From: a virus
Reading direction: 5' to 3' (one strand)
Length of the DNA stretch: 42,295 nt
Virus record (IMG/VR): IMGVR_UViG_3300047284_000300
Span: 1 to 42,295 of that record
Under the pieces are notes generated by a model, which saw only the letters and a program-made list of their open reading frames with translations, did no database searches and had not been told where the DNA came from. This document shows positions 27,427 to 42,295 of this stretch, one piece after another. Position 1 is the first letter of the stretch. Each line of letters begins with the position of its first letter. The translations under genes were made by a program, and so were the position numbers.

Positions 27427-27585
27427 ATGTCACAAGCAACCTATCGTGGTTGTCAGTATAATACTGACACCCCTAAGCAAGAATATCAGCGTTGGTATTC
27501 CCAAACACATGCACCAGCACATCCACAAAATACTTATCGTGGCGTTGCCTACCGTCCTTGCAAAAATCAGGAGGTAGCAAAATGA
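27427..27585 (+). CDS. Riboswitch-controlled DUF4278-like small protein (52 aa)
   Basis: AAGGAG precedes the ATG at 27427. The 52-aa product (MSQATYRGCQYNTDTPKQEY) carries the motif TYRG-x-x-Y twice (residues 5-11 and 37-42: NTYRGVAYRP), the hallmark of cyanobacterial DUF4278 proteins. It is basic and soluble. It lies directly behind the tandem aptamers, so expression should follow glutamine level, as for the short proteins and glutamine-synthetase inhibitors under these riboswitches in the hosts. The ATGA overlap links it to the next 28-aa gene. Function is unknown; an effect on host nitrogen metabolism is inference. Confidence 0.8.
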   Translation: MSQATYRGCQYNTDTPKQEYQRWYSQTHAPAHPQNTYRGVAYRPCKNQEVAK

Positions 27586-27668
27586 ACTGGTTGAATGTAA
27601 TCCGTAAACAAATTCAAAAACAGAAGAGACTCCAGGAAGCACAATATTATATTGCAACTCTTGGATAA
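27582..27668 (+). CDS. Micropeptide (28 aa)
   Basis: A 28-codon frame (MNWLNVIRKQIQKQKRLQEA, then QYYIATLG) with AGGAGG at good spacing and an ATGA overlap with the 52-aa gene. It is a single basic amphipathic helix. Being between a coupled start and a terminator, it is very probably translated. It belongs to the riboswitch unit; no family can be named at this size. Confidence 0.65.
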   Translation: MNWLNVIRKQIQKQKRLQEAQYYIATLG

Positions 27669-27675
27669 AAAGAAA

Positions 27676-27697
27676 GGGGGCACATAGCCCCCTTTTT
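27676..27697. terminator. Bidirectional terminator
   Basis: GGGGGC/GCCCCC (6 bp, 5-nt loop) followed by TTTTT on the plus strand; the reverse strand reads the same stem followed by TTTCTTTTT. It closes the riboswitch unit and the convergent regA operon. Confidence 0.92.
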
Positions 27698-28119
27698 CAT
27701 TCTGGTTGTTTTTTCTTACCAATATTATATTTACTTTCAAGAGTCCATTCATGTTTATCTTTAAATGATAAAACTTTAATTTGACTCAACGGAGCTGCAT
27801 CTGCTACTTGTTCCAAATTTACAATTTTCACAAGACCCCAATCTTGGAGTAACTGTGCAATTCTGTTTTTTCTTTGTACATCATTTTGGAAAAGATTGGC
27901 TCGTTTTCCATCAAGAGCAAATAGCTCTTTAAAGTGTACAATATAATATTTGCCCTGCTTATGCAAAATATGGCATGATTGATATAATTTTTTTTCTTTG
28001 CGAGAAGCAACTCCAATACGAGTTAAAGTTTCTCGGACTTTTAAAAAGTCGTCTGGTTCCCCTAGAGTTACTTCAACCATTTGTTCTGGCGACCAACTCA
28101 CTTCACTATCAGTGTTCAT
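27697..28119 (-). CDS. regA: RegA translational repressor
   Basis: A 140-aa protein. From residue 14 on (MVEVTLGEPDDFLKVRETLT, then KKLYQSCHILHKQGKYYIVH) it follows T4 RegA closely. RegA binds the start regions of early phage mRNAs, including its own and the clamp and clamp-loader messages. The first ATG at 28119 is chosen because GGAGG lies just upstream and it overlaps the gp62 stop as ATGA, giving 13 extra N-terminal residues. It is the last gene of the clamp operon. Confidence 0.95.
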   Translation of the reverse strand: MNTDSEVSWSPEQMVEVTLGEPDDFLKVRETLTRIGVASRKEKKLYQSCHILHKQGKYYIVHFKELFALDGKRANLFQNDVQRKNRIAQLLQDWGLVKIVNLEQVADAAPLSQIKVLSFKDKHEWTLESKYNIGKKKQPE

Positions 28120-28502
28120 CTTTTCCCTCCACGATTCAATTTAGATTTGATAAATTCAAGTTGTTCTTCTGTTAATATTTTCAAAGCCATTTTGGCTTTT
28201 TCATCACTGTATCCATAATATTTCTTTACAGATTCCAGAGAATCGAGTTTCTCTTTCTTTAACCAAGGAGAGAAACGTTTCTTTGGTCTGATAATATTTA
28301 TATAAAAATCATATTGAAGTTTCTTATCTAAATGAGAATTTAGATTCATTTCATTTGATATTAAAATAGTGTCCATAAATCCAGAAAAACACCTATTAAT
28401 TACATATGGAGGGTAGGTGTTTTCACAATACTCATTTGATTCCATCAAATTTTGTTTGGAAATATTGATGGAATTTAAATAATCTTTTAACTCATACATC
28501 AT
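28116..28502 (-). CDS. 62: Clamp-loader small subunit (T4 gp62-like)
   Basis: A 128-aa protein (MMYELKDYLNSINISKQNLM) with the gp62 pattern: short N-terminal helical segment, YPPYVINRCFSGFMDTILIS, KKLQYDFYINIIRPKKRFSP, then KYYGYSDEKAKMALKILTEE. gp62 is the non-ATPase subunit that joins gp44 to load the gp45 clamp. It is shorter than T4 gp62 (187 aa), as usual in cyanomyoviruses. Its start overlaps the end of an HNH gene inserted ahead of it. Confidence 0.92.
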   Translation of the reverse strand: MMYELKDYLNSINISKQNLMESNEYCENTYPPYVINRCFSGFMDTILISNEMNLNSHLDKKLQYDFYINIIRPKKRFSPWLKKEKLDSLESVKKYYGYSDEKAKMALKILTEEQLEFIKSKLNRGGKR

Positions 28503-29097
28503 CTAATAAAGCAGCAAGAGGATTTACATAGTTTGAAGTATTAACAACTGAAGTTATCTTGCCTTTGTTCACAACGTTTCCACCATAAAATTGTACAGCT
28601 TTATGAGAATTTTCTTCAGGTGTTACCCATTCTAAATTATCAATATGATTGTTTGCTGGATTATGATCTTTATGATTAATCAATGAACACTCTTTAATCC
28701 AATCCTTTGCAGGTTCTGGAATATCGTTCCAATATGGTTTTAGTCTATCTGGTGGATGAGTATCCATTGGTTTAAAAGCCCACATCACCAATTGATGTGC
28801 AAAAACTTCCTTTAATACATTGGTGGAGCGATTGTTAACAAAATAATTATAATTTTCAAACATATCAGGAGGACAAGTTAATTTCACATACAAACATTTA
28901 ATAGATCCGTCTGTTTTATGAAATCTTGTACTAAATTTAATATTTTTAGTCATCATAGGATCATAGCTACGATCAAATCCTAGGTTTCCCAGTGATCTAT
29001 TTCTTAAATGACTAACTAAATTTCCATGATCTGATATGGAATACCACTGATTTTCCTTGCCATTACGTAGGCGAACCGTTCTCCATTCTTCTTTCAT
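28492..29097 (-). CDS. HNH endonuclease with NUMOD4-like start (201 aa)
   Basis: The N-terminus (MKEEWRTVRLRNGKENQWYS) resembles NUMOD4, a DNA-recognition module, with YSISDHGNLVSH. The HNH core is CSLINHKDHNPANNHIDNLE near 145-165, including H-x-D-H, N and the following EWVTPEENSHKA. This is the HNH_3 type seen in mobile phage endonucleases. It is inserted between the Sm-like gene and gp62, and its last codons (NPLAALLDDV) run into the gp62 start. No intron borders are seen. Confidence 0.88.
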   Translation of the reverse strand: MKEEWRTVRLRNGKENQWYSISDHGNLVSHLRNRSLGNLGFDRSYDPMMTKNIKFSTRFHKTDGSIKCLYVKLTCPPDMFENYNYFVNNRSTNVLKEVFAHQLVMWAFKPMDTHPPDRLKPYWNDIPEPAKDWIKECSLINHKDHNPANNHIDNLEWVTPEENSHKAVQFYGGNVVNKGKITSVVNTSNYVNPLAALLDDV

Positions 29098-29109
29098 GTC
29101 AATTTAAAA

Positions 29110-29397
29110 TTACACAATAATTTTTTTATCTGGAGTAATAATATTACTATACATTTTAGTGTATTGATCTACAATACTCTCATCTGCTTCAGCAATATAT
29201 ACCACAAACTTTCTACCTATGGTAATTTCAGTTTGTGCTTTACTAATCATTGGAGACCATGGAGCAAACCCGAGAGTTCCTTGTCCAGTAGGAACTCCAA
29301 CAATTGCATTCTCGACAACAATTACATCAAAGTTTTCTTTGACTACATTAGCAATTAAATCCTCACCAGAGGACATACGAATCAGTTTTACGTTCAT
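29110..29397 (-). CDS. Small beta-rich protein, possibly Sm-like (95 aa)
   Basis: The opening MNVKLIRMSSGEDLIANVVK is a strand-turn-strand with the G-E/S-x-L-I signature shared with the proteins at 25790 and 38760. Residues 25-70 continue as strands (DVIVVENAIVGVPT, EITIGRKFVVYIAEA), then a helix and a lysine-rich strand tail. Such length and pattern fit an LSm barrel, a fold that binds RNA, but the resemblance is by eye. It overlaps the HNH gene upstream by 4 nt and lies within the clamp-loader operon. Confidence 0.68.
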   Translation of the reverse strand: MNVKLIRMSSGEDLIANVVKENFDVIVVENAIVGVPTGQGTLGFAPWSPMISKAQTEITIGRKFVVYIAEADESIVDQYTKMYSNIITPDKKIIV

Positions 29398-29774
29398 TTT
29401 GGCAATTTAATTTTTGATTTGTGTAATGTAACATATTTTTGCACTGTGGCAATGGAAATTTTTAATTTACTTCTTATTTGTCTATAAGACATACCACTCT
29501 CCCACAATTTTATTATTTCATTAATTTTTTCTTGGGAATGAGGTGGTCTGCCACCAAATCTGTTAGGTTTATTTGATTTTAATTGACCAGCTTTAACTAA
29601 TTCAATAAATTTTAAATTTCTGTGTCTTTGTATATTATGAATCCAATCATGATGAGTGCAACATAATGTTATTATATTTTCCTCACAATCTTGTCCCCCC
29701 AAAGAAAGAGGGACTACATGATGATGATTTAAGTCGTCATCAACTCCACATATAACACAAAAATTTAACCTCAT
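29394..29774 (-). CDS. HNH endonuclease fused to a helix-turn-helix (126 aa)
   Basis: Residues 1-55 are an HNH domain: CVICG (6-10), the triple HHH of NHHHVVPLSLGGQDCEENI (near 17-20), and CCTHHDWIH (38-46). Residues about 75-120 form a resolvase-type helix-turn-helix (INEIIKLWESGMSYRQIRSK, LKISIATVQKYVTL) that would select the target. This joined design is typical of mobile phage endonucleases. ATGA overlaps fix it exactly between gp44 and the Sm-like gene, so the insertion keeps translational coupling. Confidence 0.88.
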   Translation of the reverse strand: MRLNFCVICGVDDDLNHHHVVPLSLGGQDCEENIITLCCTHHDWIHNIQRHRNLKFIELVKAGQLKSNKPNRFGGRPPHSQEKINEIIKLWESGMSYRQIRSKLKISIATVQKYVTLHKSKIKLPK

Positions 29775-30718
29775 TTGAATTTACAATCACACATCAGTTC
29801 AGTAAAGCAAGCCAAAGTGTTAATCTCTTGATCAGCAACAAAAGCAGCTTGGTATTGGTATTTAGCAAAAATCAATACAGCTTGTGGTATTGAGTGAGGC
29901 TCTAATGATTCGTACATTGTGTTGTAAATTTTACGAATGATTGCATTCACATCATTATCTAAATTTTCAACAACCCATTTACGAACATTACCAAAATTTT
30001 TATCCTTCAAAGATTTGACAAGATCTTTGAGATTTATATCTGATACTGATGCAAGGACACCAGTATCAATAACTCCTCCAGAAGAATATCTCTGAAGTTC
30101 ATTCAAAACCCGACGCCAATCAGGAAAAAATTTATTAATTACTTCTGCAACAACTTTTTCATCATACTCAACGCTTTCTTCCTCAAGAATAGCCCTGATA
30201 CGCTGGAAAAATTCTCCTGCGACCTTTGGCTTGTCCTTTCCTGTAATATTGAAGTCGAATACTGCACATCTACTTTGTAGGGGCTCGATGATCTTATTCC
30301 TGTAATTGCAGGTAAAGATGAATCGGCAGTTGCTATGAAACGTCTCAATATTAGCCCGTAGAAGGAGTTGAACGTCGTTGGTTGTATTATCTGCTTCGTC
30401 AATGATGATGACTTTTGGTTTACCATTTCCTTGAAGTGATAAGGTCGAAGCAAAGTTCTTTGCCTGGTTCCGTACCGTGTCCAAAAATCGTCCTTCATCA
30501 GATCCGTTGATGACATAAAAATCTACTCCCAATTCTTTACATAATGCTTTTGCAATTGTGGTTTTTCCAATTCCTGGGGGACCACACAAAAGTAGATTTG
30601 GAATTTCTCCATTATCTACAAAATTTTGAAAAGTTTGCTTTACACTTTTTGGAAGAATACAGTCACTCACTTTCTGTGGTCTGTACTTCTCCACCCACAA
30701 AAAATCATTACCAATCAT
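29771..30718 (-). CDS. 44: Clamp-loader large subunit, AAA+ ATPase (T4 gp44-like)
   Basis: A 315-aa protein with the clamp-loader signature WVEKYRPQKVSDCILP, Walker A GPPGIGKTT near 46-54, Walker B VIIIDEADN near 103-111, sensor 1 in FIFTCNYRNKII, and the arginine-finger SRC. Four copies with one gp62 open and load the gp45 clamp. Length agrees with T4 gp44 (319 aa). It follows gp45 by 4 nt. Two HNH genes follow it before gp62. Confidence 0.97.
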   Translation of the reverse strand: MIGNDFLWVEKYRPQKVSDCILPKSVKQTFQNFVDNGEIPNLLLCGPPGIGKTTIAKALCKELGVDFYVINGSDEGRFLDTVRNQAKNFASTLSLQGNGKPKVIIIDEADNTTNDVQLLLRANIETFHSNCRFIFTCNYRNKIIEPLQSRCAVFDFNITGKDKPKVAGEFFQRIRAILEEESVEYDEKVVAEVINKFFPDWRRVLNELQRYSSGGVIDTGVLASVSDINLKDLVKSLKDKNFGNVRKWVVENLDNDVNAIIRKIYNTMYESLEPHSIPQAVLIFAKYQYQAAFVADQEINTLACFTELMCDCKFK

Positions 30719-30722
30719 TCAA

Positions 30723-31391
30723 TCAACCTCCAAAAGTTGAATCTGGTTCAAGTGCAATCCAATAGGTCAGATTATATTTAGAACTTGTAAACTTAGAAAT
30801 ATTTGTAGAAGATACAAGTACTTTATATACGTCTGGAATGATTTTAATATTCTCAATTTTAAAATTAAAAGTAAACTCTTTATCAGTCTCTCCAACTTTG
30901 GCAGAAAAATTATTTGACGTGTCATTGTCCTTATTTCGGACAACTAAATTAATTTCTCCATCATTTCCGATCAATGATAGATCGCTGAGCTGATATACAC
31001 TAGATGCCTTAAGAAGAGATGAAAGAACTTCTTCACTCAATTCAAACTCAACAAGTTCTCCTCCCATCACGATGTCTTTATCTGGAGCAACCGTAATCAG
31101 GCTAGGATCTGAGAAAAAATACTTTACTTTAGAACGACCACTTTTGATGGTGACATAACTGGTATTATCAAAAACAAATTCTGGATCTTTGAACAGAGTC
31201 AGACCACCAAGAAATTCATTCAGATCATAGAGTGCAAAATCCTGTTCAAATTCTTCAGAGCAAATATATTCCGCAAGAATATTTTTAACTGGAGAAATGG
31301 TACGAATTTTAGTTCCTGCTTTTACCACAATTGATGAATTGATAGCAGAAAAGTTTTTGAGAACATTGAGAGTTTCGGTTGAAATTTTCAT
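30723..31391 (-). CDS. 45: Sliding clamp (T4 gp45-like)
   Basis: From ATG 31391 the protein has 222 aa (T4: 228): MKISTETLNVLKNFSAINSS, the two-domain PCNA-like pattern with DLNEFLGGLTLF near 72-84, and a C-terminal half ending TYWIALEPDSTFGG. A GTG two codons upstream is in frame but less likely. gp45 is both the polymerase clamp and the co-activator that connects gp33/gp55-bearing RNA polymerase to replication, so it links DNA synthesis with late transcription. Confidence 0.95.
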   Translation of the reverse strand: MKISTETLNVLKNFSAINSSIVVKAGTKIRTISPVKNILAEYICSEEFEQDFALYDLNEFLGGLTLFKDPEFVFDNTSYVTIKSGRSKVKYFFSDPSLITVAPDKDIVMGGELVEFELSEEVLSSLLKASSVYQLSDLSLIGNDGEINLVVRNKDNDTSNNFSAKVGETDKEFTFNFKIENIKIIPDVYKVLVSSTNISKFTSSKYNLTYWIALEPDSTFGG

Positions 31392-31393
31392 AA

Positions 31394-31702
31394 TCACTTA
31401 AATTCTTGAAGACCGTTTTGTGTGCGAGAATAATGCTTATCAAAATGAAGCAGGAGCATGGCATAATGAATTACTTTGAGAAGGTCTCGCTTGTTAAGTC
31501 CATCCTTATCACCATATCGGCTGCCATACTTAAGGATATTTGCTTGACAAAAAGGAGCAGCAAGACCTTTAGCTGCCATCAAATCAATAGTCTGAATGTC
31601 ATCATATCCTTGTTCGTCACCACAGTAATGACCATGATAAGTGCTGACTACATACTCTTCAATGTCTTTGAGGATCTTTTCCTCGTTGTACTTCCATTGC
31701 AT
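31394..31702 (-). CDS. DUF3310-like protein (102 aa)
   Basis: The ATG at 31702 (MQWKYNEEKILKDIEEYVVS) is chosen because a promoter with its -10 at 31745-31750 lies within the longer open frame. The product has STYHGHYCG, DLMAAKGLAAPFCQANILKY and the helix KDGLNKRDLLKVIHYAMLLL, the pattern of DUF3310 proteins (HY...Q.ID.....L.F..GN.LKY..R...K....DL.KA..Y), which are common in phages and once labelled nucleotide kinases without proof. It is the first gene of the clamp operon. Confidence 0.72.
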   Translation of the reverse strand: MQWKYNEEKILKDIEEYVVSTYHGHYCGDEQGYDDIQTIDLMAAKGLAAPFCQANILKYGSRYGDKDGLNKRDLLKVIHYAMLLLHFDKHYSRTQNGLQEFK

Positions 31703-31744
31703 AATTAAATCTCCAAATAAAAAATGGGGAGAGAAACTCCCCTT

Positions 31745-31773
31745 AGTATACCGCAATCAGGCGGCGGTGTCAA
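31745..31773 (-). promoter_or_regulatory. Sigma70 promoter for the clamp operon
   Basis: Minus strand TTGACA (31768-31773), 17 nt, TATACT (31745-31750). The -35 lies in the last codons of the cobS-like gene. The unit downstream is DUF3310-like, gp45, gp44, HNH, Sm-like, HNH, gp62, regA. Confidence 0.85.
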
Positions 31774-32869
31774 GTACCTCTTCGGTAGTTTCTGGGGTAG
31801 CTTCTTCAGTAGTGTCCAGATCAGAAGCATCAATGTTCTTGTAGAGATCTAGGAAAGAACTCTTGGTGTCATCATCAAAGCGATTGATACACACATTGAT
31901 TGCTTTCTTGCGATTCTTAAAGATAGCAAATGACTGAATGATATGAACAAGACGACGAGTAGTAATGATCTCATCTACACCACCATCATAGAAAGTCTTA
32001 CGAATGGTGTCTGCCCAAACAATTAGCTTGTCTACAAACTCCTCGTCAACAACTTCAAAAGAATTCATAAGGTTCATGAGAATCTTTTTCTCAGTCGCCA
32101 TTGAAGGATAAGGCTGCTCAAAGGTGATTGGGAAACGCTCAAGGAAAGCCTCGTTCATCACATTGGTGCCGATGAAACGACCATCATCAGAACCCTTACC
32201 TTTAGTGTTTGCAGTAGCAATCACATTGAACCCAGCAGAAGGAGTTACATACTGATTGATCTTCTTGAGGAAAACACCCTTGCCTTCCAGAACAGACTGT
32301 AGACACATAATCTTGTTGCTGGCAAGGTCGATCTCATCGAGAAGAAGCACAGCACCACGCTTGAGAGCGTTCACAACAGGACCGTCATGCCATACAGTCT
32401 CCCCATCAACAAGACGGAAACCACCCAGTAGATCGTCCTCATCGGTCTCAATTGTGATGTTGACACGAATCAGTTCACGCTTCAGTTGAGCACATGCTTG
32501 CTCTACACTGACAGTCTTACCATTACCAGAGAGACCAGTGATAAAGACAGGATAGAACATGCCAGACTTCACGATTCGCTTTACATCAGTAAAGTTGCCA
32601 AACGAGACATAGTTCTTATCCTTCTGAGGAATAAAGCTAACTACTGGAGTTGCAGGGGTGGCAGACATAGAATTAAAAGTTTTTTCAAGTTGTTCAGTTA
32701 CAGTCAAATTCCAAACTCCACGACTAGTTTTGTTAGGTTCAAGTGTTTTACAAATGGATGCGAGAGAAGTATTTGAACTTGCGGCGTATTCAATAAGTTG
32801 CTGGCGTGTGACAGTTTCACCATAAAGAGCAGACAGATTCTGGACAAGCTGATCAATCATTTGAGTCAT
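31757..32869 (-). CDS. cobS: CobS-like MoxR-type AAA+ ATPase
   Basis: A 370-aa protein: an N-terminal helical domain (1-95) and an AAA+ core with Walker A TGLSGNGKTVSVEQ near 113-122, the CobS/MoxR segment LLGGFRLVDGETVWHDGPVV, Walker B AVLLLDEIDLAS near 172-180, and sensor 1 VIATANTKGKG. In B12 synthesis CobS works with CobT to insert cobalt; in cyanophages the real client is uncertain. The next gene downstream codes for a CobT-like VWA protein, so the pair is kept. It has its own promoter at 32899-32927. Confidence 0.92.
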   Translation of the reverse strand: MTQMIDQLVQNLSALYGETVTRQQLIEYAASSNTSLASICKTLEPNKTSRGVWNLTVTEQLEKTFNSMSATPATPVVSFIPQKDKNYVSFGNFTDVKRIVKSGMFYPVFITGLSGNGKTVSVEQACAQLKRELIRVNITIETDEDDLLGGFRLVDGETVWHDGPVVNALKRGAVLLLDEIDLASNKIMCLQSVLEGKGVFLKKINQYVTPSAGFNVIATANTKGKGSDDGRFIGTNVMNEAFLERFPITFEQPYPSMATEKKILMNLMNSFEVVDEEFVDKLIVWADTIRKTFYDGGVDEIITTRRLVHIIQSFAIFKNRKKAINVCINRFDDDTKSSFLDLYKNIDASDLDTTEEATPETTEEVLDTAA

Positions 32870-32898
32870 AATGAAGTTACCTCGTTTGGTATGAAAGT

Positions 32899-32927
32899 AG
32901 TATAGGACAGAAGGGGTGGGGTGTCAA
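32899..32927 (-). promoter_or_regulatory. Sigma70 promoter of the cobS-like gene
   Basis: Minus strand TTGACA (32922-32927), 17 nt, TATACT (32899-32904), starting right at the stop codon of the CobT-like gene. Confidence 0.85.
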
Positions 32928-35077
32928 GCGATTTGCTCGATGAATTTCGATAAGATGATCTTATTGAAAGCTTTCTTTTTCATTTGAGTCTTGAATGTTA
33001 CTAGTGGACTCGATGAGCTAGCTGGTGAGATATCAGTAGGAGTACTATTTCCAATCTCAATAAAATACAATTCATTATATCCTAGAGAGGTTGCAGTAAA
33101 TGATCTTGTGTTTCCCCATTCTGCAGATACAGCACTCCAAGAAGAAAATTCATCTTTTAGATAACGAGCAACAAAAGACTTGGCACCATAGAAATCAATA
33201 AGCCTAAAGCCTACAGCATTAGATCCAGTGACTTGTCGATAATAATCTACAAATGCACCAGTAATTCCCATACTACCATTCTTACTAATATTCATCATAG
33301 TAATTTTGTTCTTTTTGTCCTGAAGACACAGGACATCATTAGCTTGAAGCCAACCAGCATGAACAATATTTCTTTGTCCAGAATATGGTGAGCGATTATA
33401 AGATACTGAGTTTGATTCGCCATCAGTCAAAAAGACTGTGTTCACTTTATCTACTTTGTAGGTTTTTTTAAACTTATCAAATACATCAATAGCAGCAAAA
33501 ATACATTCATTCAAAGGAGTACTTCCTAGATCATAATGAGTATATCCATAAGTTAGATATGATTGATGATCTAAAGCATGTGCAAGTTTCCAAATATTTT
33601 TCATTTGTTTTTCCAGTTGAGCAGTATTCATTTTACTGCTCAAGAAATTTACCAATAGGAAATCTTCACCAATATGAATCTGAGAATCTCCAAGTTTAAT
33701 CTTTTTACTACGAGACATTTGAGCATAATTTTTTGCTACATTTCTGTCATTGAAGGAATATACCTCAAAAGGAACTTGAACTTTCTTGCAAAATTGAATT
33801 AGGTTGAACAGTTGCTTGATAGTGCCTACTAGATTCCCTTGCATGGAACCAGACCAATCAAGATACATGATCAGACCATGAGACTTACCTTTAGGAACAA
33901 CAGTTACTTTCTTGAAGATGTCATCATTCCACTTGTAGGAATACATTTTATTGGTATCAAGAACACCAGTCCCAGCAGTAGCAGACCGATTATATTCGGT
34001 TGCTCGCTTTTTCATTTCAAATTCTTTAATTAGATATGATACTGACTTCTTACATTCATCCTTATAATTTTTGTAATCATTCTCTGCTTTATTAAACATA
34101 TTCTGGTAATAAGTTTTATTCCTATGGCCAGAAGTACCCGCATCGTTGATGACTTCTTTGAAAATATTAGGAAGATCATTTGCACAGTCTTTCCAAGGAA
34201 TGATATGACTATCAATATTCATAGTCGGAGGAGTCAGGTAGATATAATTACTACCTGTCATACTAGCAAGTTGTTGTTGATTCTTAGACCATGCATTATC
34301 AGTATCCGAAGTGAAGTCAGCTTCCTTTCCAGAGTTGTTAGAAGATGAAGAAGTAGCTTCTTTGGGAGTATCTTCTTTTTTATCAGAATCTGATTGAGTA
34401 GAATTCTGATTTTGACTATCACTCACATTGCTATCGGGAGTTTGATTTTTTTGAGAATCAGTTTCTTCCAGTTCTCCATCAGCAACATCTCCATTTGATG
34501 GATCAATCTGAATTTCAAGTTCTATTTCACGTTCAGTGTGCTCAACAAGTTCTTTGACAATGTTTACTACATCATCAAAAGTTTCTGCATTCGCAACTTT
34601 AGTAATAATTACTTTTTCTTCTGGAGTAAAGTTAATAAAAACTCCTCCGTTAACATTGCCCAATTTAAAATAAAGATTAATTTTATCAATAAACTTAAGT
34701 TCATTGATATCAATAGAATCAATCTCAAAGAAATCTTTGTCATGTAGCTCGGAATATCCACGATAGAATGCACGAGCAAGACCAGGATACTTTCGCTTCA
34801 TCAGCTTTTCAATACGAGCATCCTCGATCACATTCAGATACCCCTGGGGAAGGTTCAGATCACTTCCATACAAATCTGGAGTATAGATGGCATGACCAAC
34901 TTCATGACCTACAAGAAGATCATATACATCATTAGAAGTTCCCTCCCAAATAGGCAAAGTTAGCACTCGATTGTGCGTATCAAAACTTGCAGTGGAAACA
35001 GAACGATGCTCAACAGTAAGGTTTTCGGTTGCCAAAAGTTTCGCAAGAATGCTTTTGGACTGTTGGATGTCGGACAT
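32924..35077 (-). CDS. CobT-like protein: HExxH peptidase-like domain plus VWA domain
   Basis: Start ATG 35077 (GAGG upstream, 17 nt after the likely transcription start) gives 717 aa. Near 57-63 the sequence GHEVGHAIYTP is an HExxH zinc site, with a possible third ligand in NVIEDARIEKL. Residues about 190-270 are an acidic, Ser/Asp/Gln-rich linker. Near 405 the MIDAS start DWSGSM opens a VWA domain that runs to about 600. This is the layout of CobT-type partners of MoxR ATPases. It is followed by the cobS-like gene, each with its own promoter. Whether the zinc site cuts peptides is not known. Confidence 0.85.
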   Translation of the reverse strand: MSDIQQSKSILAKLLATENLTVEHRSVSTASFDTHNRVLTLPIWEGTSNDVYDLLVGHEVGHAIYTPDLYGSDLNLPQGYLNVIEDARIEKLMKRKYPGLARAFYRGYSELHDKDFFEIDSIDINELKFIDKINLYFKLGNVNGGVFINFTPEEKVIITKVANAETFDDVVNIVKELVEHTEREIELEIQIDPSNGDVADGELEETDSQKNQTPDSNVSDSQNQNSTQSDSDKKEDTPKEATSSSSNNSGKEADFTSDTDNAWSKNQQQLASMTGSNYIYLTPPTMNIDSHIIPWKDCANDLPNIFKEVINDAGTSGHRNKTYYQNMFNKAENDYKNYKDECKKSVSYLIKEFEMKKRATEYNRSATAGTGVLDTNKMYSYKWNDDIFKKVTVVPKGKSHGLIMYLDWSGSMQGNLVGTIKQLFNLIQFCKKVQVPFEVYSFNDRNVAKNYAQMSRSKKIKLGDSQIHIGEDFLLVNFLSSKMNTAQLEKQMKNIWKLAHALDHQSYLTYGYTHYDLGSTPLNECIFAAIDVFDKFKKTYKVDKVNTVFLTDGESNSVSYNRSPYSGQRNIVHAGWLQANDVLCLQDKKNKITMMNISKNGSMGITGAFVDYYRQVTGSNAVGFRLIDFYGAKSFVARYLKDEFSSWSAVSAEWGNTRSFTATSLGYNELYFIEIGNSTPTDISPASSSSPLVTFKTQMKKKAFNKIILSKFIEQIA

Positions 35078-35100
35078 AGGTGCCTCAATTCGTTGCACTT

Positions 35101-35129
35101 ATAGTAACAGGTCCACCCCACCATGTCAA
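35101..35129 (-). promoter_or_regulatory. Sigma70 promoter of the CobT-like gene
   Basis: Minus strand TTGACA (35124-35129), 17 nt, TACTAT (35101-35106), in the gap after gp46. Confidence 0.83.
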
Positions 35130-35151
35130 TGGGATGGACCATAAGCATTCC

Positions 35152-36864
35152 TTATATCTCTTTTACTTTGCTGAAGTTCTTGACCTTTTCAAATTGTAAA
35201 ACTTTTTCAAACTTATCATGTAATAGATCTCCTTTATGAGAAATTACAAATACATTTGTGTCACTATCTATTCCACGAATAATTCTAAGAAAATCTTCTG
35301 TTCCAGAAATATCAAGAGAAGAATCAAATACTTCATCTAATATCAATAGATTTGTATTTGTAGAATTCTTAAGTTTAGCAACTGCTCTCCAAGTAAACAT
35401 CAATGCCAAATCAATTCGCATTTTTTCACCTTCAGAGAAAGATGTGTAACTAAATTCATCTCTAAATCTGGATTTGATAGTTTCTTCAAAATTCTCATCG
35501 AGATTAAAGTTTACATAGAAGTCCATCATTTGAAGATACTTATTAATCAGCTGATTCATTACTGGTAGATATTTTTTAATGATCTTAGATTTGATTCCAG
35601 TATCTTTAAGCAAACTAGAAATAATTTCAAAATAAATTTTATTTGATTTCATCTTATCTACTTGTTTTTGAAGACCAAGACCTTCAGAAGCTAGTGCAGT
35701 AAGTTTTTGTTTTTCAGTTGCGATATCTTTATCTGATTCAGAAATTTTTTCAATTTCTTCTTGAAGTGCATCAATGAATTTTGTAAGTCCTTTACATTTA
35801 TAGTTTTGAGATGCCATTTGAACAGTTAGATCATTAACTTCAGACAAAATTTTCTGCGACTTATCAATAATTTCTTGAGACTCTTGAATTTTAACTTCAA
35901 CTTCTTGAATTGAAGTTTCAAGTTTTTCTATTTCAGAATTACATTTTGAAATGTGCTTACTCTTAACTTTATCAGTTAGATCTTGATTGCAAGTTGGACA
36001 AATATCATTTTGATCGTAAAATTGTATATTAGATTTATAATCAGATAGTTTAGTAAAAAATTTAGTTCTATATTTTTCTAATTCTTTTATGTTAATCTTT
36101 GGAAGACTTGCAAGCTCTTGATTTTTAGCTTGAAGATCATCACAAATTTTATCATAAGTTTCATTGCACTCTTTTATTTGTTTCTCGTAATCTTCTATTT
36201 GAATTTTTTTATCATCAATATTTTTTTGAGATTGATTTTTAATATAGTCAATATGATCTTTTTGCATTTTGACTTTTTCTTTTAGAAATTCAATTTCATT
36301 CTCATAAGACTTAATGTTATCATTATTGGTTTTAACTCTGTCTTTAAGAATCACATTCATTGTTGAGAAGATACGAATGTCCAAAAGATCCTCAATAATT
36401 TCTCTGCGGTGTGCTGCAGGAAGTTGCATGAAAGGAACAAAAGTACTGGAACCTAAAATTACAATTTGAGTAAATGATTTGTAATTTAATTTTAGAATAT
36501 TCTGTTCCAAATATTTTTGTTGATCTGACGCTGCAGCAGTTTGATCTAATAGCTGACCATCAATCCAAATCTCAAAAATATTTGGTTTCAGTCCACGAAT
36601 AATTTTGTACTCTTTTGATCCTATACTGAACTCTAGGTCTACTTTACAGTCTTTCTCATTTATAGAGTTAATTAACTGGTTTTTATTGACCTTACGAAAG
36701 GACTTGTTAAAGAGGGCAAATACAATAGCCTCAATGATAGTACTTTTACCTGCTCCATTAGAGCCCACTATCAAAGTAGTATTTGCATCATTTAGATTGA
36801 TTGTTGTTGGGGTATTGCCTACTGCAAGAAAGTTTGAATACGTTATAGACTTAAATAAAATCAT
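35152..36864 (-). CDS. 46: Recombination nuclease subunit, Rad50/SbcC-like (T4 gp46)
   Basis: A 570-aa SMC-like ATPase: Walker A VGSNGAGKSTIIEAI near 33-45, long coiled coil (about 175-410) with the zinc hook CPTC near 285, the ABC signature FSEGEKMRIDLALM near 475, and Walker B NLLILDEVFDSSLD near 510. With gp47 it processes double-strand ends for recombination-dependent replication. The size matches T4 gp46 (560 aa). The start overlaps the DUF3110-like gene by 14 nt. Confidence 0.96.
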   Translation of the reverse strand: MILFKSITYSNFLAVGNTPTTINLNDANTTLIVGSNGAGKSTIIEAIVFALFNKSFRKVNKNQLINSINEKDCKVDLEFSIGSKEYKIIRGLKPNIFEIWIDGQLLDQTAAASDQQKYLEQNILKLNYKSFTQIVILGSSTFVPFMQLPAAHRREIIEDLLDIRIFSTMNVILKDRVKTNNDNIKSYENEIEFLKEKVKMQKDHIDYIKNQSQKNIDDKKIQIEDYEKQIKECNETYDKICDDLQAKNQELASLPKINIKELEKYRTKFFTKLSDYKSNIQFYDQNDICPTCNQDLTDKVKSKHISKCNSEIEKLETSIQEVEVKIQESQEIIDKSQKILSEVNDLTVQMASQNYKCKGLTKFIDALQEEIEKISESDKDIATEKQKLTALASEGLGLQKQVDKMKSNKIYFEIISSLLKDTGIKSKIIKKYLPVMNQLINKYLQMMDFYVNFNLDENFEETIKSRFRDEFSYTSFSEGEKMRIDLALMFTWRAVAKLKNSTNTNLLILDEVFDSSLDISGTEDFLRIIRGIDSDTNVFVISHKGDLLHDKFEKVLQFEKVKNFSKVKEI

Positions 36865-37126
36865 GAGAAATAGTATCAGGAGGAATTACAAAATCATCTG
36901 GGGTTATTATGCAGTAATTATATCCAAAATTTTTACATGCTGCAACAGCATCTTCTTCTTCAATTTCAATCAACTGCATTTCTGGAAACCCATCTGCCTC
37001 TAGAAGACCAATATAGCGCAAAGCGTCATCCTCGTCAACAAACATCTGAAGAACTTTAGATCCATCAGATGTTGTTACCGCATAGGCACCTTCTTCTTTT
37101 TTGTCTTTTAGAGTTAATATGAACAT
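36851..37126 (-). CDS. DUF3110-like protein (91 aa)
   Basis: The sequence MFILTLKDKKEEGAYAVTTS, then VLQMFVDEDDALRYIGLLEA and MQLIEIEEEDAVAACKNFGY, follows the pattern of DUF3110, a small ferredoxin-like-size domain known mainly in cyanobacteria and plastids (MFVL... V.MFE.EDDA.RFA.LLE...FP.P.VE.I...E...FC...GY...). Its function is not known. It lies between gp47 and gp46, touching both, so it is co-translated with the nuclease. Transfer from a cyanobacterial host is the simplest origin. Confidence 0.75.
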   Translation of the reverse strand: MFILTLKDKKEEGAYAVTTSDGSKVLQMFVDEDDALRYIGLLEADGFPEMQLIEIEEEDAVAACKNFGYNYCIITPDDFVIPPDTISHDFI

Positions 37127-38175
37127 TACTGAAATTCAGAAGCTTCGATGTAAATTGATTTTATAATAGATTTTAAATTAGATTTATCGTAAGTATCTTT
37201 CATATCTTCTATATATCTTTGTAAAGTGGTCAATGTATCTTCGTGTTCTATAGTTTCGGTATCCCCATCTTCAGATATTAATTCAGTATTTTCCACAATT
37301 TTTAAATCATGAATTCCTATATTGTAGAATTTTTCTATGACTTTATCAAACATATAAAGATCTGTTTTATTTTCTACAATAACTTTTAGATAAGTATCTT
37401 TATACTGACTAAAATCACTAATCGTATAATTATTTTTTACATCATCGTAATAAAATTTTCTAAACATTTTAAACGGATTGCGAATGAATTTGAGTTTTCT
37501 CGCATCCAAATCATATAGATGAAATCCTCTTTCTTCATTGTAATCACTCCAAGTCATTTCATAAGGATTGCCAAGATAGTAAATATTATCATTTCTAGAC
37601 TTATGATGAAAATGTCCAGAAAATACTCTTTTAAATTTTGAAAATATATCTCGCTCAAGTCCACCTTCAAACGTATGTCCTGGGTGAGCTTCAAATCCAT
37701 TGATTTCCAAATGACCCATTAAAACTTCAGATTTTGTACTCTGAAGATGAGCCATTACTTTTGCTTGATTCTCAGAATTGATCCAGGGAACCATAGTAAT
37801 GGTATTGCCAAGAACATCTATATCACAAATTTCATCATAAATTGTAATATTGTTATAAGAATCTAAAAGTAAAGATGGAGTATTAACTCTATTAGTATTC
37901 TTATAATATGCAGTGTGATTTCCAACAATCATATGAATTTGGATACCCATATCTGCTAGTCTATCATAATAATGTCTTTTGATTCTGTCCCAAGCTACAA
38001 AATCTATAGACTTACGATTATCAAAAGTATCTCCAAGATCAAACAAAATTGTTATATTATTTTGCTCTAAGGTTGGAAAAAATACTTCATCATAGAACTT
38101 CAGAAAAAATTCCCAAAAAGCTTGAGATCCTTTTCTTCCGTCAAGATGTTGATCAGTAATAATAGCAGAATTCAT
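37126..38175 (-). CDS. 47: Recombination nuclease subunit, Mre11/SbcD-like (T4 gp47)
   Basis: A 349-aa metallophosphoesterase with all nuclease motifs: I DQHLD (8-12), II DLGDTFDNRK (near 46), III VGNHTAYY (near 89), IV GHLEI, and V SGHFHHK near 187. The C-terminal third (KYIVENKTD..., ending KSIYIEASEFQ) is the capping region that meets gp46. Length fits T4 gp47 (339 aa). It overlaps the gp55 stop by 4 nt, placing both in one unit from the divergent promoter. Confidence 0.96.
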   Translation of the reverse strand: MNSAIITDQHLDGRKGSQAFWEFFLKFYDEVFFPTLEQNNITILFDLGDTFDNRKSIDFVAWDRIKRHYYDRLADMGIQIHMIVGNHTAYYKNTNRVNTPSLLLDSYNNITIYDEICDIDVLGNTITMVPWINSENQAKVMAHLQSTKSEVLMGHLEINGFEAHPGHTFEGGLERDIFSKFKRVFSGHFHHKSRNDNIYYLGNPYEMTWSDYNEERGFHLYDLDARKLKFIRNPFKMFRKFYYDDVKNNYTISDFSQYKDTYLKVIVENKTDLYMFDKVIEKFYNIGIHDLKIVENTELISEDGDTETIEHEDTLTTLQRYIEDMKDTYDKSNLKSIIKSIYIEASEFQ

Positions 38176-38642
38176 CGGTTATTACGATATTCAAGGTTTT
38201 CTTTAATACTATTCATATCAGACATATTGAATCCCATGATGGAATCGTCTGCAGCGAATACTTCATCAAATCCAGAACGTTCTAATAATTTAGTTTTAAT
38301 TTCTAATTGCTTTTTCTCTTTTTGAATTCTTCTTAGAAACGCAAAATAAATTATCTGAGTAAAATAAGCAAAAGGATTAGTAGATTTTTCTGGATCAAAG
38401 TTGTCAATATACTGTAGGCAGTTTTCAATACCGTCACATATCATGTCGTCTTTAAACATGTAGTTGACAAAGTTAGGACGATATGATAGATGAGTTGCAA
38501 TTTTAAGAAAGCACTCTCCAATATAATTGGGGACTTTTGGTTTTGGCAACTCATTCTCTTTTGCATACTTTACTTCTTTTCTGTAAACCATTAAGGCATC
38601 CAAAAAATCCTTATTGTTTACGTAATGTTCTTTTTTCTTCAT
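38172..38642 (-). CDS. 55: Late sigma factor (T4 gp55-like)
   Basis: A 156-aa minimal sigma factor: the region-2-like core reads YIGECFLKIATHLSYRPNFV, DDMICDGIENCLQYIDNFDP and STNPFAYFTQIIYFAFLRRI, which binds core RNA polymerase and opens TATAAATA promoters. The C-terminal tail ends in NSIKENLEYRNNR; the hydrophobic clamp-binding end of T4 gp55 is not obvious. It is the first gene behind the minus-strand promoter at 38669-38697. Its targets are visible across this window. Confidence 0.93.
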   Translation of the reverse strand: MKKKEHYVNNKDFLDALMVYRKEVKYAKENELPKPKVPNYIGECFLKIATHLSYRPNFVNYMFKDDMICDGIENCLQYIDNFDPEKSTNPFAYFTQIIYFAFLRRIQKEKKQLEIKTKLLERSGFDEVFAADDSIMGFNMSDMNSIKENLEYRNNR

Positions 38643-38668
38643 TCAATTTGTTATTTGCAAGTGTATTC

Positions 38669-38697
38669 ACTTTAACACATTAGAATAGGCTTGTCAA
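38669..38697 (-). promoter_or_regulatory. Sigma70 promoter for gp55-gp47-gp46
   Basis: Minus strand TTGACA (38692-38697), 17 nt, TAAAGT (38669-38674). Its -35 is 7 nt from the -35 of the opposing promoter, the two separated only by a run of G. Confidence 0.8.
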
Positions 38698-38704
38698 GGG
38701 GGGG

Positions 38705-38733
38705 TTGACAAGAGTGCTGAATGTGTGTATAAT
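38705..38733 (+). promoter_or_regulatory. Consensus sigma70 promoter pointing antisense
   Basis: Plus strand TTGACA (38705-38710), 17 nt, TATAAT (38728-38733): both boxes are perfect. Transcription would run through 38740 onward, antisense to the 132-aa gene and then uvsW. No plus-strand gene of credible quality follows. Confidence 0.85.
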
Positions 38734-38748
38734 AACTCTGTCAGGGTT
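38726..38748 (+). repeat. 23-nt promoter-core repeat, copy 2
   Basis: Identical to the minus strand of 7752-7774: -10 box and the first transcribed bases (AACTCTGTCAGGGTT). Confidence 0.9.
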
Positions 38749-38759
38749 GAAAACTTATA

Positions 38760-39158
38760 TTAAGTATCTATATTAAGTTTAAAAGACTTCTCTAGAATCT
38801 TCCTAGCCTCTTCAATTTTATTTTTAAATCCTAATTCTTTATCTAGAGAAACTCTATTGTTATCCTCTTTATTAAGATATTTGTTTACAGTACTGCGGTA
38901 CAGATGTAAGATTTTATTGTCTGCTTCTCCTACTGTAAATACTTTATTTTTTTCTATAAAGAATATATCTTCCTTACAGAATTTAATCCAAGGTCTCATA
39001 TCTACTTTATACATTTCTCCAGCAGGAGTCATAACTTGCTCTACATCTATCTCAAAAGGATTTTCAATAATAAATCCATCTTCTTCTTCACATACAACAA
39101 CAATTCCAATTAATTCTGATCCGTCTAATAATTTAATTACTCCATAAAATTCATTCAT
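38760..39158 (-). CDS. Small beta-rich protein, possibly Sm-like (132 aa)
   Basis: The N-terminus MNEFYGVIKLLDGSELIGIV, then VVCEEEDGFIIENPFEIDVE, is strand-rich with the G-S-E-L-I-G signature shared with the proteins at 25790 and 29110. After about residue 90 it becomes a charged helix (NNRVSLDKELGFKNKIEEAR). An LSm-type barrel plus a helical tail is the likeliest fold, by eye only. The 3' end faces the antisense promoter at 38705-38733. It overlaps the uvsW 3' part by 4 nt. Confidence 0.66.
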   Translation of the reverse strand: MNEFYGVIKLLDGSELIGIVVVCEEEDGFIIENPFEIDVEQVMTPAGEMYKVDMRPWIKFCKEDIFFIEKNKVFTVGEADNKILHLYRSTVNKYLNKEDNNRVSLDKELGFKNKIEEARKILEKSFKLNIDT

Positions 39159-39928
39159 GTTTCCTTCCTTTTAAAATTTACTGGAATTATTTCGTACTCA
39201 AAATTTTCTTCTGAGTAAGTTTTAATTCTTTCTATTAGATGATTTAACGTATAATTTTTTTTATCTCCTTTGGAGAAATCATCAGCAATATCAAATAATT
39301 TTGCTTTTGTTTTATTTTCTCCTTTTCTCAATACTCTTCCTATTGATTGGAGATTTCTAATTCTTGATTTACTAGGGGAAGCAAAAATAACATTGTGTAA
39401 ATTTCTAATGTTAATTCCTGTGCTGAAAGTTCCGTAAGATGCCACAATAATGGCATTGTTTTCTTTTTCAGTAATTTCTCTGATTAATTCTCTTTCTTCA
39501 GCATCAACTCCACCATAGACAAAAAACACTTTACGTTCATTGTCTGTATGACTATTTATTATTTCATGAAGTATCTTGCCATGCTTTTCTACCATAGCAA
39601 ATAATATCAGTGTATTACCTTCTTGGTTGATGGCAAGATTTTTGATATATTTGTTTCTTTTTTCATCTCTACAAATATAATCTAATTCTTCTTGATAGGA
39701 TTCAAATTGATATGAATCATGTTGTAGTAATAATATATTAATTTTTAAATTTGATAGATACCCTTTGTCTATCAATTTTTTAGTCTTGATAACCTTGTTA
39801 ACAGGTCCAAATAACCCCTCTAAAACGAGTTGATTTGTGTTTGACCCATCCAGAGTACCTGTAAACCCAAATCTATACTTACAATTATGTAGTTTTGTCA
39901 TTATAGATATCAAATTGATGAGCTTCAT
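39155..39928 (-). pseudogene. uvsW: UvsW helicase, C-terminal part (out of frame)
   Basis: This 258-codon frame carries the second half of an SF2 helicase: FGFTGTLDGSNTNQ (motif III region), then NTLILFAMVEKHGKIL, VFFVYGGVDAEERELI, ASYGTFSTGINIRNL (motif V) and QSIGRVLRKGENK (motif VI). It lies one frame away from the upstream part and overlaps it by about 44 nt. The nearest ATG, at 39928, is poor in context, so separate translation is doubtful. The gene is probably broken by a small deletion, unless the sequence has an error or a frameshift is used. Confidence 0.82.
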
Positions 39929-40610
39929 CTCCAATTATTACATCATATTTTTCAAAAAAACTTTTAGGTAATTTGTAAATAGATTGCCAAGTAGTAACAG
40001 TTATTGGATTGATAGTTTGTTTAGATTTTCCAGCATAAATTTTATGAACTTCTTCTCCCCAACCATAGTCTTGAAAATCTTTTGATAACTGCTCTACAAG
40101 AGATGTGGTTGGAGTGATAATAAGAACATTTAAATTTTTATCAAGATAATATCTTACTATACAATAAATCATTAAAGATTTGCCAGAAGCTGTAGGAGAT
40201 AATAATAGTTTTCTATTATTTCTAAGTGCTTCATAAATTGCCTTATACTGATAATCTCTAACTTTAAATGGTATATTTAATGATTTAATATAATCTACCA
40301 AACCTTCTGGAGTGATAGATTGATCAGAAGCTTTTGGCATTCCATAATATGCATTATCTTGATCTAGATATGTGTAACTTCTAGAGCATAACCATTCTGT
40401 TAGATAGTCATATAATCCGACGTAAATTAATCCATCATAGGGACTGAATAATCTAATTTTACCATCCCACAATTTGTTTTTAAATTGAGGCATAAATTTA
40501 GCATTTGGAACATCAAATGTGAAATATTCAAATAATTCAAATTTAATATGTGGATCACATTCTACCGTTAAATATACTTCGTTTTTCTTTTTAATAATAA
40601 CATCTGTCAT
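39885..40610 (-). pseudogene. uvsW: UvsW helicase, N-terminal part
   Basis: This 241-codon frame has the UvsW N-terminal domain (1-105), the Q-like segment FKVRDYQYKAIYEAL, Walker A SPTASGKSLMIY near 138-146, motif Ia ITPTTSLVEQL and motif II IGDEAHQF near 227-234. It then runs into DIYNDKTT and a stop. Without motifs III-VI it cannot be an active ATPase. UvsW normally unwinds branched DNA and R-loops and switches off origin-dependent replication. The start overlaps the uvsY stop (TAATG). Confidence 0.88.
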
Positions 40611-41041
40611 TAAATACTACCTTGCATAAATTTTTGCCATTCAATGCTATTTTTGATTTGAAATCCTCTAGTGCTAATATTACTTAGAATACTTTCTAAT
40701 AAAAATATCATCTCCTTATAATAATTTAGTTTATTTAAAGCCGACTGAATTTCATCATCTGATTCAATATAAAGTTGAACATCTTGTTTCAATATTTTTA
40801 AATCAAATGGTTTTTCTTTATATACCTCTGCGTCTGATTTTCCAGTATAATACTCAAATTTTTCTCTGAGTAATTTTTTATAATCTTGGTCTTTTTTAAT
40901 TTTAATTAATCTTACATCTGAAAGCCAATTTAGATATTTGCTATGCAGTTGTGGAATTTTTATAGATTCATGATCAAGTAGGTCTTCATCCATCTTGGAA
41001 TCCTGAGCCCAATGATCTTTAATAAAGTCAATATCAATCAT
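40610..41041 (-). CDS. uvsY: Recombination mediator UvsY
   Basis: A 143-aa protein (MIDIDFIKDHWAQDSKMDED) with the UvsY pattern: HESIKIPQLHSKYLNWLSDV, the basic segment RLIKIKKDQDYKKLLREKFE that contacts single-stranded DNA, YYTGKSD, and the C-terminal coiled coil (IQSALNKLNYYKEMIFLLES) ending in EWQKFMQGS. UvsY loads UvsX onto gp32-covered DNA. Length is close to T4 UvsY (137 aa). It overlaps the gp3-like gene by 4 nt and uvsW by 1 nt. Confidence 0.95.
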   Translation of the reverse strand: MIDIDFIKDHWAQDSKMDEDLLDHESIKIPQLHSKYLNWLSDVRLIKIKKDQDYKKLLREKFEYYTGKSDAEVYKEKPFDLKILKQDVQLYIESDDEIQSALNKLNYYKEMIFLLESILSNISTRGFQIKNSIEWQKFMQGSI

Positions 41042-41574
41042 AGTTTTTTGTCATCAATTGTGTAGATATCGTATATAGTATACTTGAAACTAGTGCTAAC
41101 TGTAAAGTACTGAACGTCTTGTGCAGTGGATTGGAATCTCAGTTCTCCTATATTTGTTGGGAATAAATCTTTAAATACTATTTTAAATTTCTTTTGAAAG
41201 TTGGAATCTAAAATAAATAAAATTCCTTCACTGTAAGTTTTATCATCTAGATCATCTCCAGGGAGTTCTGCAATATCTCCACCAGAATAAGGATGACCAA
41301 GTTTTCTTACCCAATTATGTATGGCAAGATAATTTTTCATATTTTCGTCAACAATAAATTCAATATTCAAATCTTCAAACGAAATTTCATCTCCAGGATG
41401 TGGGATTGCATTCCATCTTGTAGCTTGAGTAGCTACAGATAAATTTATGCCTGGAACATTTGCGGATTGACAAAAAAATGAAACGTTAGGATATTTAATT
41501 AATTGAAATTGAAATCCAATTCCAGTTAAAAAATTAGCTGGACAATTTGAATTAGTTACAAAATTAGCTGACAT
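41038..41574 (-). CDS. 3: Tail completion protein (T4 gp3-like)
   Basis: A 178-aa beta-rich protein: MSANFVTNSNCPANFLTGIG, then FFCQSANVPGINLSVATQAT with the SANVPG motif common to tail-tube-related proteins, and DLNIEFIVDENMKNYLAIHN. Position between gp23 and uvsY is where cyanomyoviruses carry gp3, the tail terminator that stabilises tube and sheath, and the length matches T4 gp3 (176 aa). A related tube or baseplate role cannot be excluded. CTAAATAAA lies upstream as a possible late promoter. Confidence 0.75.
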   Translation of the reverse strand: MSANFVTNSNCPANFLTGIGFQFQLIKYPNVSFFCQSANVPGINLSVATQATRWNAIPHPGDEISFEDLNIEFIVDENMKNYLAIHNWVRKLGHPYSGGDIAELPGDDLDDKTYSEGILFILDSNFQKKFKIVFKDLFPTNIGELRFQSTAQDVQYFTVSTSFKYTIYDIYTIDDKKL

Positions 41575-41596
41575 AGCATTTTATTTTTATTTAGAT

Positions 41597-41623
41597 AAAA
41601 AAAGAGCCCCTTTTGGGGGGCTC
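41597..41623 (-). terminator. Rho-independent terminator of gp23
   Basis: Minus strand GAGCCCC/GGGGCTC (7 bp, 6-nt loop) followed by seven T, 21 nt after the gp23 stop. Confidence 0.93.
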
Positions 41624-41644
41624 CTGAAGTATGTGAATCAGTGA

Positions 41645-42295
41645 TCACATTAGGTTGATAACTCTGGTTCTTCTGTAGTAAACGTTGTCGTTTGCCTGAA
41701 GAGCACCAGAACGTTGAGTTAGACCACCTGCGAATGGGTTTGCAACCATACCATAACGGGTCTTGAAGCCGATCTTTGGCTGGAAGGTGTCCTGACCGAT
41801 GGAACGAACCATTTGGAGAGGAACATATGGACAATAGAAGAGACCTGCATCATATGCATTGGAACCCTTATACCCCATCACATAGTAGTGATCGTTAGAA
41901 ATGTTTGCTGAATATGGATCAACATATACCTTGATACGACCATTGATTGTACCAGCTAGAGTTGATACAGTGTCGTCTGGGGTGTCTGAAGTGTTGAGTA
42001 GTGGAGTGTAATCCATTACTTTAGCAGCAGCTAGAGCACTTGCAACGTCGGCTGAGCAGACGATGAAGTTGCCCTTTCCTCTACGAGTCTCATGACCGAT
42101 TGCGTTTGCATCACGCTCAATCTGGAAGAGTAGACCCTTGAACTTCTCAACTGACCAACGACCATTGGAGTCAACGTCGAGGTCGAAAGTACCAGCGTTA
42201 GCTACGTTGTTCTGAGCACCAGGCTTAGCGGTTACGTAGATGGTACGTACAACTTCACGGTTGATTTCAGTTAGAATCTCTGAGCTTAGAATGTT
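41645..42295 (-). CDS. 23: Major capsid protein gp23, C-terminal part
   Basis: The frame is open to the window edge and gives 216 residues without a start (NILSSEILTEINREVVRTIY, then GRRGKGNFIVCSADVASALA and KVMDYTPLLNTSDT, ending YRRTRVINLM). This is the C-terminal part of the HK97-fold major capsid protein of T4-like phages, which builds the head hexamers after gp21 removes its N-terminus. Base composition is richer in G+C than the early genes. The strong terminator behind it suits a highly expressed late gene. Confidence 0.95.
   Translation of the reverse strand, partial: NILSSEILTEINREVVRTIYVTAKPGAQNNVANAGTFDLDVDSNGRWSVEKFKGLLFQIERDANAIGHETRRGKGNFIVCSADVASALAAAKVMDYTPLLNTSDTPDDTVSTLAGTINGRIKVYVDPYSANISNDHYYVMGYKGSNAYDAGLFYCPYVPLQMVRSIGQDTFQPKIGFKTRYGMVANPFAGGLTQRSGALQANDNVYYRRTRVINLM

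Follow-up and report, generated by a model that had tools for sequence, protein, structure and literature searches.

Overlapping divergent promoters with an operator form switches of the lambda cI/cro type. In T4-like cyanophages of the S-PM2 and Syn9 type, early genes are preceded by a sigma-70-like motif, and the marine T4-like cyanophages are described as being without MotA, AsiA, Alt and Mod, both according to excerpted text of PMC2984593. On the control of the switch from early to late expression in these phages, the conserved site described here offers a direct handle. Antisense transcription is on record in the same family, as the RNA CfrI of S-PM2, approximately 225 nt in length, lies antisense to psbA and to the gene of a homing endonuclease (excerpts of PMC2984593 and PMC5931967). 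In T4, the origins oriF (at uvsY) and oriG (at 34) consist of a promoter and an A+T-rich unwinding element, UvsW removes R-loops at the origins, and skew shifts mark only some of them, as stated in the excerpted part of PMC3016281. PICMI satellites of virulent phages, finally, carry int, alpA and a primase gene (excerpt of PMC10803314). As kinds of element, divergent promoters, operators, early promoters and antisense RNA are each familiar. In the literature searched, key transcriptome studies lying outside its scope, we found no description of an antisense promoter that sits at the gene for the late sigma factor, carries an operator and is nearly universal, nor of such an element being shared with host-integrated islands.

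The promoter pair upstream of gp55

The window, that is the whole stretch of DNA analysed, is a 42-kb IMG/VR fragment (42,295 nucleotides) of a T4-like cyanophage of the family Kyanoviridae, whose nearest isolate by the gp55 region is Synechococcus phage DSL-LC03 with 65% nucleotide identity. The original prediction had placed a plus-strand promoter with two perfect boxes 7 nt from the -35 box of the minus-strand gp55 promoter, with only minus-strand genes on its far side, and all three statements hold for the following features.

38172–38642, minus strand: gp55, late sigma factor (PHROG 234, E 9e-68)
38669–38697, minus strand: gp55 promoter TTGACA-17-TAAAGT, 10/12 match (TTGACA 38697–38692, 17 nt, TAAAGT 38674–38669)
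38690–38712, no strand assigned: inverted repeat CTTGTCAA-G7-TTGACAAG without mismatches (0), containing both -35 boxes
38705–38733, plus strand: antisense sigma-70-type promoter TTGACA-17-TATAAT, 12/12 match (TTGACA 38705–38710, 17-nt spacer, TATAAT 38728–38733)
38734–38748, plus strand: operator-like dyad AACTCTGTCAGGGTT, 15 bp, directly after the -10 box and over the predicted start
near 38740, plus strand: predicted start of the antisense promoter
38760–39158, minus strand: 132-aa gene, phrog_471 ("methylamine utilization"), Sm_like match below cut-off
39155–40610, minus strand: uvsW helicase, two overlapping ORFs in the window record

gp55 and the 132-aa gene are minus-strand neighbours 117 bp apart, and the pair occupies the space between them, its two -35 boxes separated by exactly 7 nt, GGGGGGG (38698–38704). 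The long ORFs ahead of the antisense promoter, namely the 132-aa gene, the uvsW pieces and uvsY, all lie on the minus strand. As assembled, uvsW is broken into two overlapping ORFs and hence not intact; relatives have it undivided, and the split is either an assembly error or a real break. The label "methylamine utilization" of phrog_471 is the annotation carried in many phages, and the Sm_like (PF16243) match of the 132-aa gene reaches 23.7 of the 29.4 bits of the cut-off. Rfam detected no family at the antisense promoter; its matches in the window all lie elsewhere, comprising a wcaG RNA (1180–1284), a manA RNA (4809–5017), a glutamine riboswitch aptamer (27353–27399) and eight minus-strand tRNAs between 2642 and 6514.

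The antisense promoter is the sole 12/12 site within 22300–42295. The whole window has six such sites, where 60 dinucleotide shuffles average 0.12, so perfect promoters represent a functional class in this phage, and the predicted site beside gp55 is very probably a real promoter. A search for gp55 relatives yielded 80 IMG/VR loci, which together with the window and DSL-LC03, and less L035 with too little upstream DNA, gave 81 readable regions. All 81 contain an antisense-oriented promoter, and in 79 an exact TTGACA-17-TANNNT adjoins gp55 on the antisense strand; the exceptions are L018 with a spacing of 18, and L079, where the element stands approximately 400 nt upstream, ahead of an inserted gene. 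S-RIM2 and P-SSM4 also carry the antisense promoter at gp55, and in C48C1, whose gp55 is 44% identical, TTGACG-17-TATAAT is kept and the dyad is absent. No such promoter was observed at gp55 of the outgroup Escherichia Tequatrovirus, where the neighbourhood is different. Judged by these regions, the predicted promoter is conserved across the Kyanoviridae examined and is not a chance match. Its expected 5' ends in three isolates are as follows.

Syn9, near 123,698, minus strand: expected antisense 5' end
S-PM2, near 84,439, minus strand: expected antisense 5' end
P-SSM2, near 124,805, minus strand: expected antisense 5' end

The element is conserved together with its counterpart on the other strand. 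Among 88 loci, a single -35 box serves both promoters in 44, and the boxes lie 2–16 nt apart in 37 and are crossed in five, the remaining two (L004 and L020) having poor automatic picks. In ten loci the G-run between the -35 boxes is four to nine long, and its length sets the distance between the promoters. Of 75 gp55 copies, 66 have a reverse-facing promoter scoring at least 9.5 next to the element, as do 9/21 copies from host genomes, the other 12 of which have no clear reverse promoter. As such a promoter is found beside none of 19 sense-driving phage copies and in only 67 of 1500 shuffles, the pairing is no automatic by-product of the element. In L079, the pair stays together at the head of the operon despite the gene inserted before gp55. 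From these comparisons, the predicted unit under conservation is the back-to-back promoter pair.

The near-symmetry of the -35 region raises the question whether the gp55 promoter simply fires both ways, the antisense arm being functionless. TTGTCAA is indeed nearly palindromic and common to both arms in the 44 loci with a shared box, but the antisense arm is the more conserved one and possesses its own -10 box and dyad. Across 83 distinct intergenic regions, counted with C48C1 left out, the antisense -35 box is TTGACA in all 83 and the spacing is 17 in 82, while the sense -35 box varies (TTGTCA in 41, TTGACA in 25). As TTGACA-17 is kept even in loci with separate -35 boxes, we consider a mere by-product highly improbable.

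The dyad and a proposed switch

A sequence-only model of the element, termed R1 and built from 55 sequences, found one to four strong copies in each of 11 complete isolate genomes searched whole, and in all 11 one of these lies at gp55, an assignment that for S-SM1 and S-MbCM6 rests on position and not on a gene table. P-SSM2 (252 kb) has the gp55 copy and no other. In the window, the sole other occurrence of AACTCTGTCAGGGTT, at 7752–7766, lies within a second copy of the element.

7749–7798, minus strand: second copy of promoter and dyad, driving a RusA-like ORF (R1 51.3 bits, E 4e-15)
7376–7714, minus strand: 112-aa RusA-like Holliday junction resolvase downstream of this copy (PHROG 244, E 2e-22)

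Copies away from gp55 drive ordinary genes with a leader of approximately 40 nt, and in the isolates whose gene tables were inspected they precede clusters of short ORFs, several directly after the tail-lysozyme gene. An unanchored exact scan for TANAATAACTCTGTCAGGGTT returned at least 118 matching viral stretches, 80 of which were classified, plus two genome matches; 67 of the 80 classified viral loci are the gp55 antisense site. In three further loci (L147, L201 and L160), the back-to-back unit heads another operon, with a tail-side gene on one side and a small gene on the other, and its promoter is again antisense to the far side, into tail genes. The small gene is phrog_580 in L147, with its like, judged by eye, in L160. 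In L197, the unit points back into a gene of structural appearance.

Comparing gp55 copies with the other copies of the element (16 copies from 13 genomes with two or more) separates the dyad from its surroundings. The dyad differs at 0.071 of positions within a phage and at 0.228 between phages (0/20,000 permutations), whereas the spacer (0.566 against 0.618; 1250/20,000), the -10 box (0.094 against 0.129; 1895/20,000) and the downstream flank (0.613 against 0.673; 1014/20,000) show at most a weak within-phage tendency. Since similarity within a phage is found for the dyad and not for the spacer or flank, the dyad looks like a putative operator read by a phage-specific factor. Dyads changing in step at scattered sites would be the expected trace of a co-evolving DNA-binding factor, although short-tract conversion or recent copying could also yield such concerted change. 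The dyad arms are complementary beyond a permutation of the right halves (mean 8.52 against 7.97; 0/2000), a comparison that ignores the relatedness of the sequences. Mismatches in the dyad are dominated by T-G over A-C on this strand and mostly reflect one inherited consensus. As C48C1 is without a dyad and some loci, such as L021, L039 and L052, have poorly symmetric ones, the putative operator is not strictly required. An RNA hairpin formed by the dyad was rejected, the 5' arm lying between the -10 box and the usual start, and we read the repeat as a DNA dyad. The phrog_471 protein is not favoured as its reader; C48C1 has a gene in that position and no dyad. The dyad may serve as bait for the missing regulator.

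Taken together, conservation, the fixed 17-nt spacing, the dyad over the start and the overlap or close apposition of the promoters suggest a mutually exclusive switch between an early antisense promoter and the gp55 promoter, which we put forward tentatively, at somewhat less than even confidence. On this reading, the antisense arm is a true promoter of the sigma-70 type that belongs to the early class, points away from gp55 and makes up one back-to-back unit with the gp55 promoter; its early timing is suggested by the sigma-70 type and by the other copies ahead of short-ORF clusters. Host RNA polymerase on the antisense promoter would occlude the gp55 promoter early in infection. We infer this occlusion from the placing of the -35 boxes, which are shared, crossed or 2–16 nt apart, an arrangement in which two polymerases could hardly occupy both arms together; exclusion would be weaker in the 37 of 88 loci whose -35 boxes are adjacent and not overlapping. 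An early-made, phage-specific DNA-binding factor would then bind the dyad and turn the antisense promoter off, and the gp55 promoter, thereby freed, would allow the orderly expression of the late sigma factor and of gp47-gp46. What the antisense promoter transcribes may matter little, or may add interference against read-through from uvsW.

A possible antisense transcript and the origin alternative

The original prediction saw in this promoter the source of an antisense regulator missed by gene annotation. The conserved promoter facing the 132-aa gene and uvsW stands, and the overlooked plus-strand gene that had been named as a possible refutation was sought downstream, where no conserved plus-strand ORF was found; a distinct regulatory product likewise did not emerge. 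Among the matches listed, an ORF of at least 60 aa starts within 200 nt of 9/67 gp55-type copies against 8/15 copies elsewhere. Intrinsic terminators are almost absent, with three in 169,591 bases downstream (79 loci, within 3 kb), and cyanobacteria are not known to carry Rho. In the window, the downstream RNA folds no better than shuffles (z -0.46). Close to the predicted start, the codons of the 132-aa gene show no synonymous constraint (observed/expected about 1.0), in a count that excludes C48C1 and drops L002, L028, L035 and L079, in which no 132-aa ORF was found.

These results bear most directly on the possibility that a small overlooked gene, or a separate small RNA acting in trans, starts at the antisense promoter. 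The first transcribed bases are conserved, which would fit either, but conservation reaches only a few bases past the dyad (statistics taken over sequences in which a TTGACA was found), and copies driving other genes share the dyad. With neither a conserved ORF nor a terminator, a hidden plus-strand gene was rejected and a discrete small RNA disfavoured, fold and codon constraint being absent as well; we regard this pair of explanations as very unlikely.

An effect in cis, by which the antisense RNA or antisense transcription itself restrains the 132-aa gene and uvsW early, makes fewer demands on the transcript. The orientation and conservation of the promoter fit such an effect, as does its position, since in most loci about 26–33 nt separate the -10 box from the stop codon of that gene. 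The family has a precedent for antisense RNA in CfrI of S-PM2 (excerpts of PMC2984593 and PMC5931967), and the second unit in L147, L201 and L160 is antisense too. The analyses above gave no sign of a defined end or fold of the RNA or of constraint on its nucleotides, and although a long undefined transcript would be compatible with this, the explanation leaves the pairing with the gp55 promoter and the move of the pair with the operon head in L079 unaccounted for. As the main function of the promoter we therefore consider it unlikely, while antisense action in cis on uvsW may accompany the proposed switch.

The chief competitor of the switch is an origin: by analogy to oriF and oriG of T4, the promoter might instead make a primer RNA that anneals in A+T-rich DNA ahead and forms an R-loop origin, in which case its transcript would need neither an ORF nor a terminator. 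The lack of ORF, terminator and codon constraint agrees with this, uvsW and uvsY adjoin, P-SSM2 has a single copy of the element, and many of the host-genome copies described below adjoin a primase-domain gene with approximately 300 nt of non-coding DNA ahead. The A+T fraction rises to 0.745 at +15 to +60 compared with 0.66–0.69 further on (52 loci), but this rise coincides with the short intergenic stretch. Moreover, no G/C-skew inflection occurs at gp55 in Syn9 or S-PM2, the other copies drive ordinary genes behind a leader of some 40 nt, and an origin by itself leaves the dyad and the pairing unexplained. We thus judge this function doubtful, and the mutually exclusive switch is retained as the preferred reading.

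Copies in host chromosomes and comparison with known systems

An exact-pattern scan of a genome collection described as covering 84,980 species gave two matches, a short phage-like MAG contig (L242) and an island on a contig of 82 kb from the single-cell genome of a Synechococcus (L243). As the exact scan gave only these two, a host origin of the element was rejected. In L243, an integrase, an AlpA-like gene, a tRNA-Ser and a host competence gene adjoin the element.

2628–6533 of the L243 contig: island span as noted

With R1 at E 1e-4, the element was found in 20/300 genomes of the Synechococcus family, several copies lying on contigs of 1.9–3.2 Mb, and in 0/198 control genomes of an unrelated family, apart from the MAG already holding the phage-like contig. 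One host copy (L269) was dropped from the host-copy counts as a duplicate of L268. Behind the element and on the opposite strand, 13 of 21 host copies encode a zinc-finger (CPxC) protein, mostly starting within approximately 140 nt of the element (approximately 500 in L261); 14 were listed, and L272, a spurious frame, was dropped from the count and kept in the HMM. The HMM built from these 14 rows, one of them spurious, matches three phage proteins with E values of about 1e-20 to 1e-24, namely the primase annotated as gp61 in S-PM2, the corresponding protein of Syn9 and the window ORF at 12402–13379. A recombinase was confirmed near at least 8/21 host sources (L243, L260, L264, L270, L271, L272, L273 and L275), a minimum because the check covered part of the 21.

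Further observations concern the surroundings of these copies (L243 and L259–L278). Some islands are flanked by a tRNA. Several of L259–L278 show two adjacent short hairpins approximately 130–250 nt ahead of the element, with differing stems and GAA/GTA-type loops (seen by eye, some by script), which might mark an origin or act in packaging or as an RNA signal. NATAAATA, the cyanophage late-promoter motif, occurs at least once within 400 nt ahead of the element in 10/21 host copies by raw count (L243, L259, L261, L263, L265, L268, L270, L272, L274 and L278). By eye, L267, L270 and L276 have a second dyad like AACCTTTACAAGGTT behind the element, resembling a tandem copy. The 60-aa proteins of the islands, ribbon-helix-helix-like by eye, gave no match in Pfam (one scanned) or PHROGs (three scanned) and no significant phage homologue in Syn9, S-PM2 or the window (best E 0.33).

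From their gene content, the element-bearing host islands look like candidate phage satellites. A shade more tentatively than the switch itself, we propose that promoter and dyad form a phage-specific late-switch or first-origin signal, which satellites would copy beside a mimic of the primase zinc domain in order to fire or replicate only with the helper's factor. If true, the element in a host island beside a primase-domain gene would be a sequence mark for finding satellites. As in PICMI, several host copies lie near an integrase, an AlpA and a primase-domain gene; unlike in PICMI, the primase gene is a short homologue of the gp61 zinc domain, and the island carries a phage-type promoter.

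At the gp55 site, the comparison with oriF and oriG of T4 extends to a promoter with A+T-rich DNA ahead, no need for an ORF, and uvsW and uvsY as neighbours. The T4 origins differ in using MotA middle promoters, with no dyad described in the excerpted text of PMC3016281, and no skew change is seen at gp55 in Syn9 and S-PM2. CfrI of S-PM2 shares antisense transcription in the same phage family, whereas the site described here is gp55/uvsW in the relatives examined and its transcript is a predicted one. Like the early promoters of S-PM2 and Syn9, the element presents TTGACA and TATAAT boxes of the kind found ahead of early genes, but this subclass has a dyad over the start, occurs in one to four strong copies per genome and at gp55 faces no gene. 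Divergent switches of the lambda cI/cro type share with the proposed one the two back-to-back promoters and an operator on one arm; here, both arms are near-consensus sigma-70 promoters, and the regulator is a putative one.
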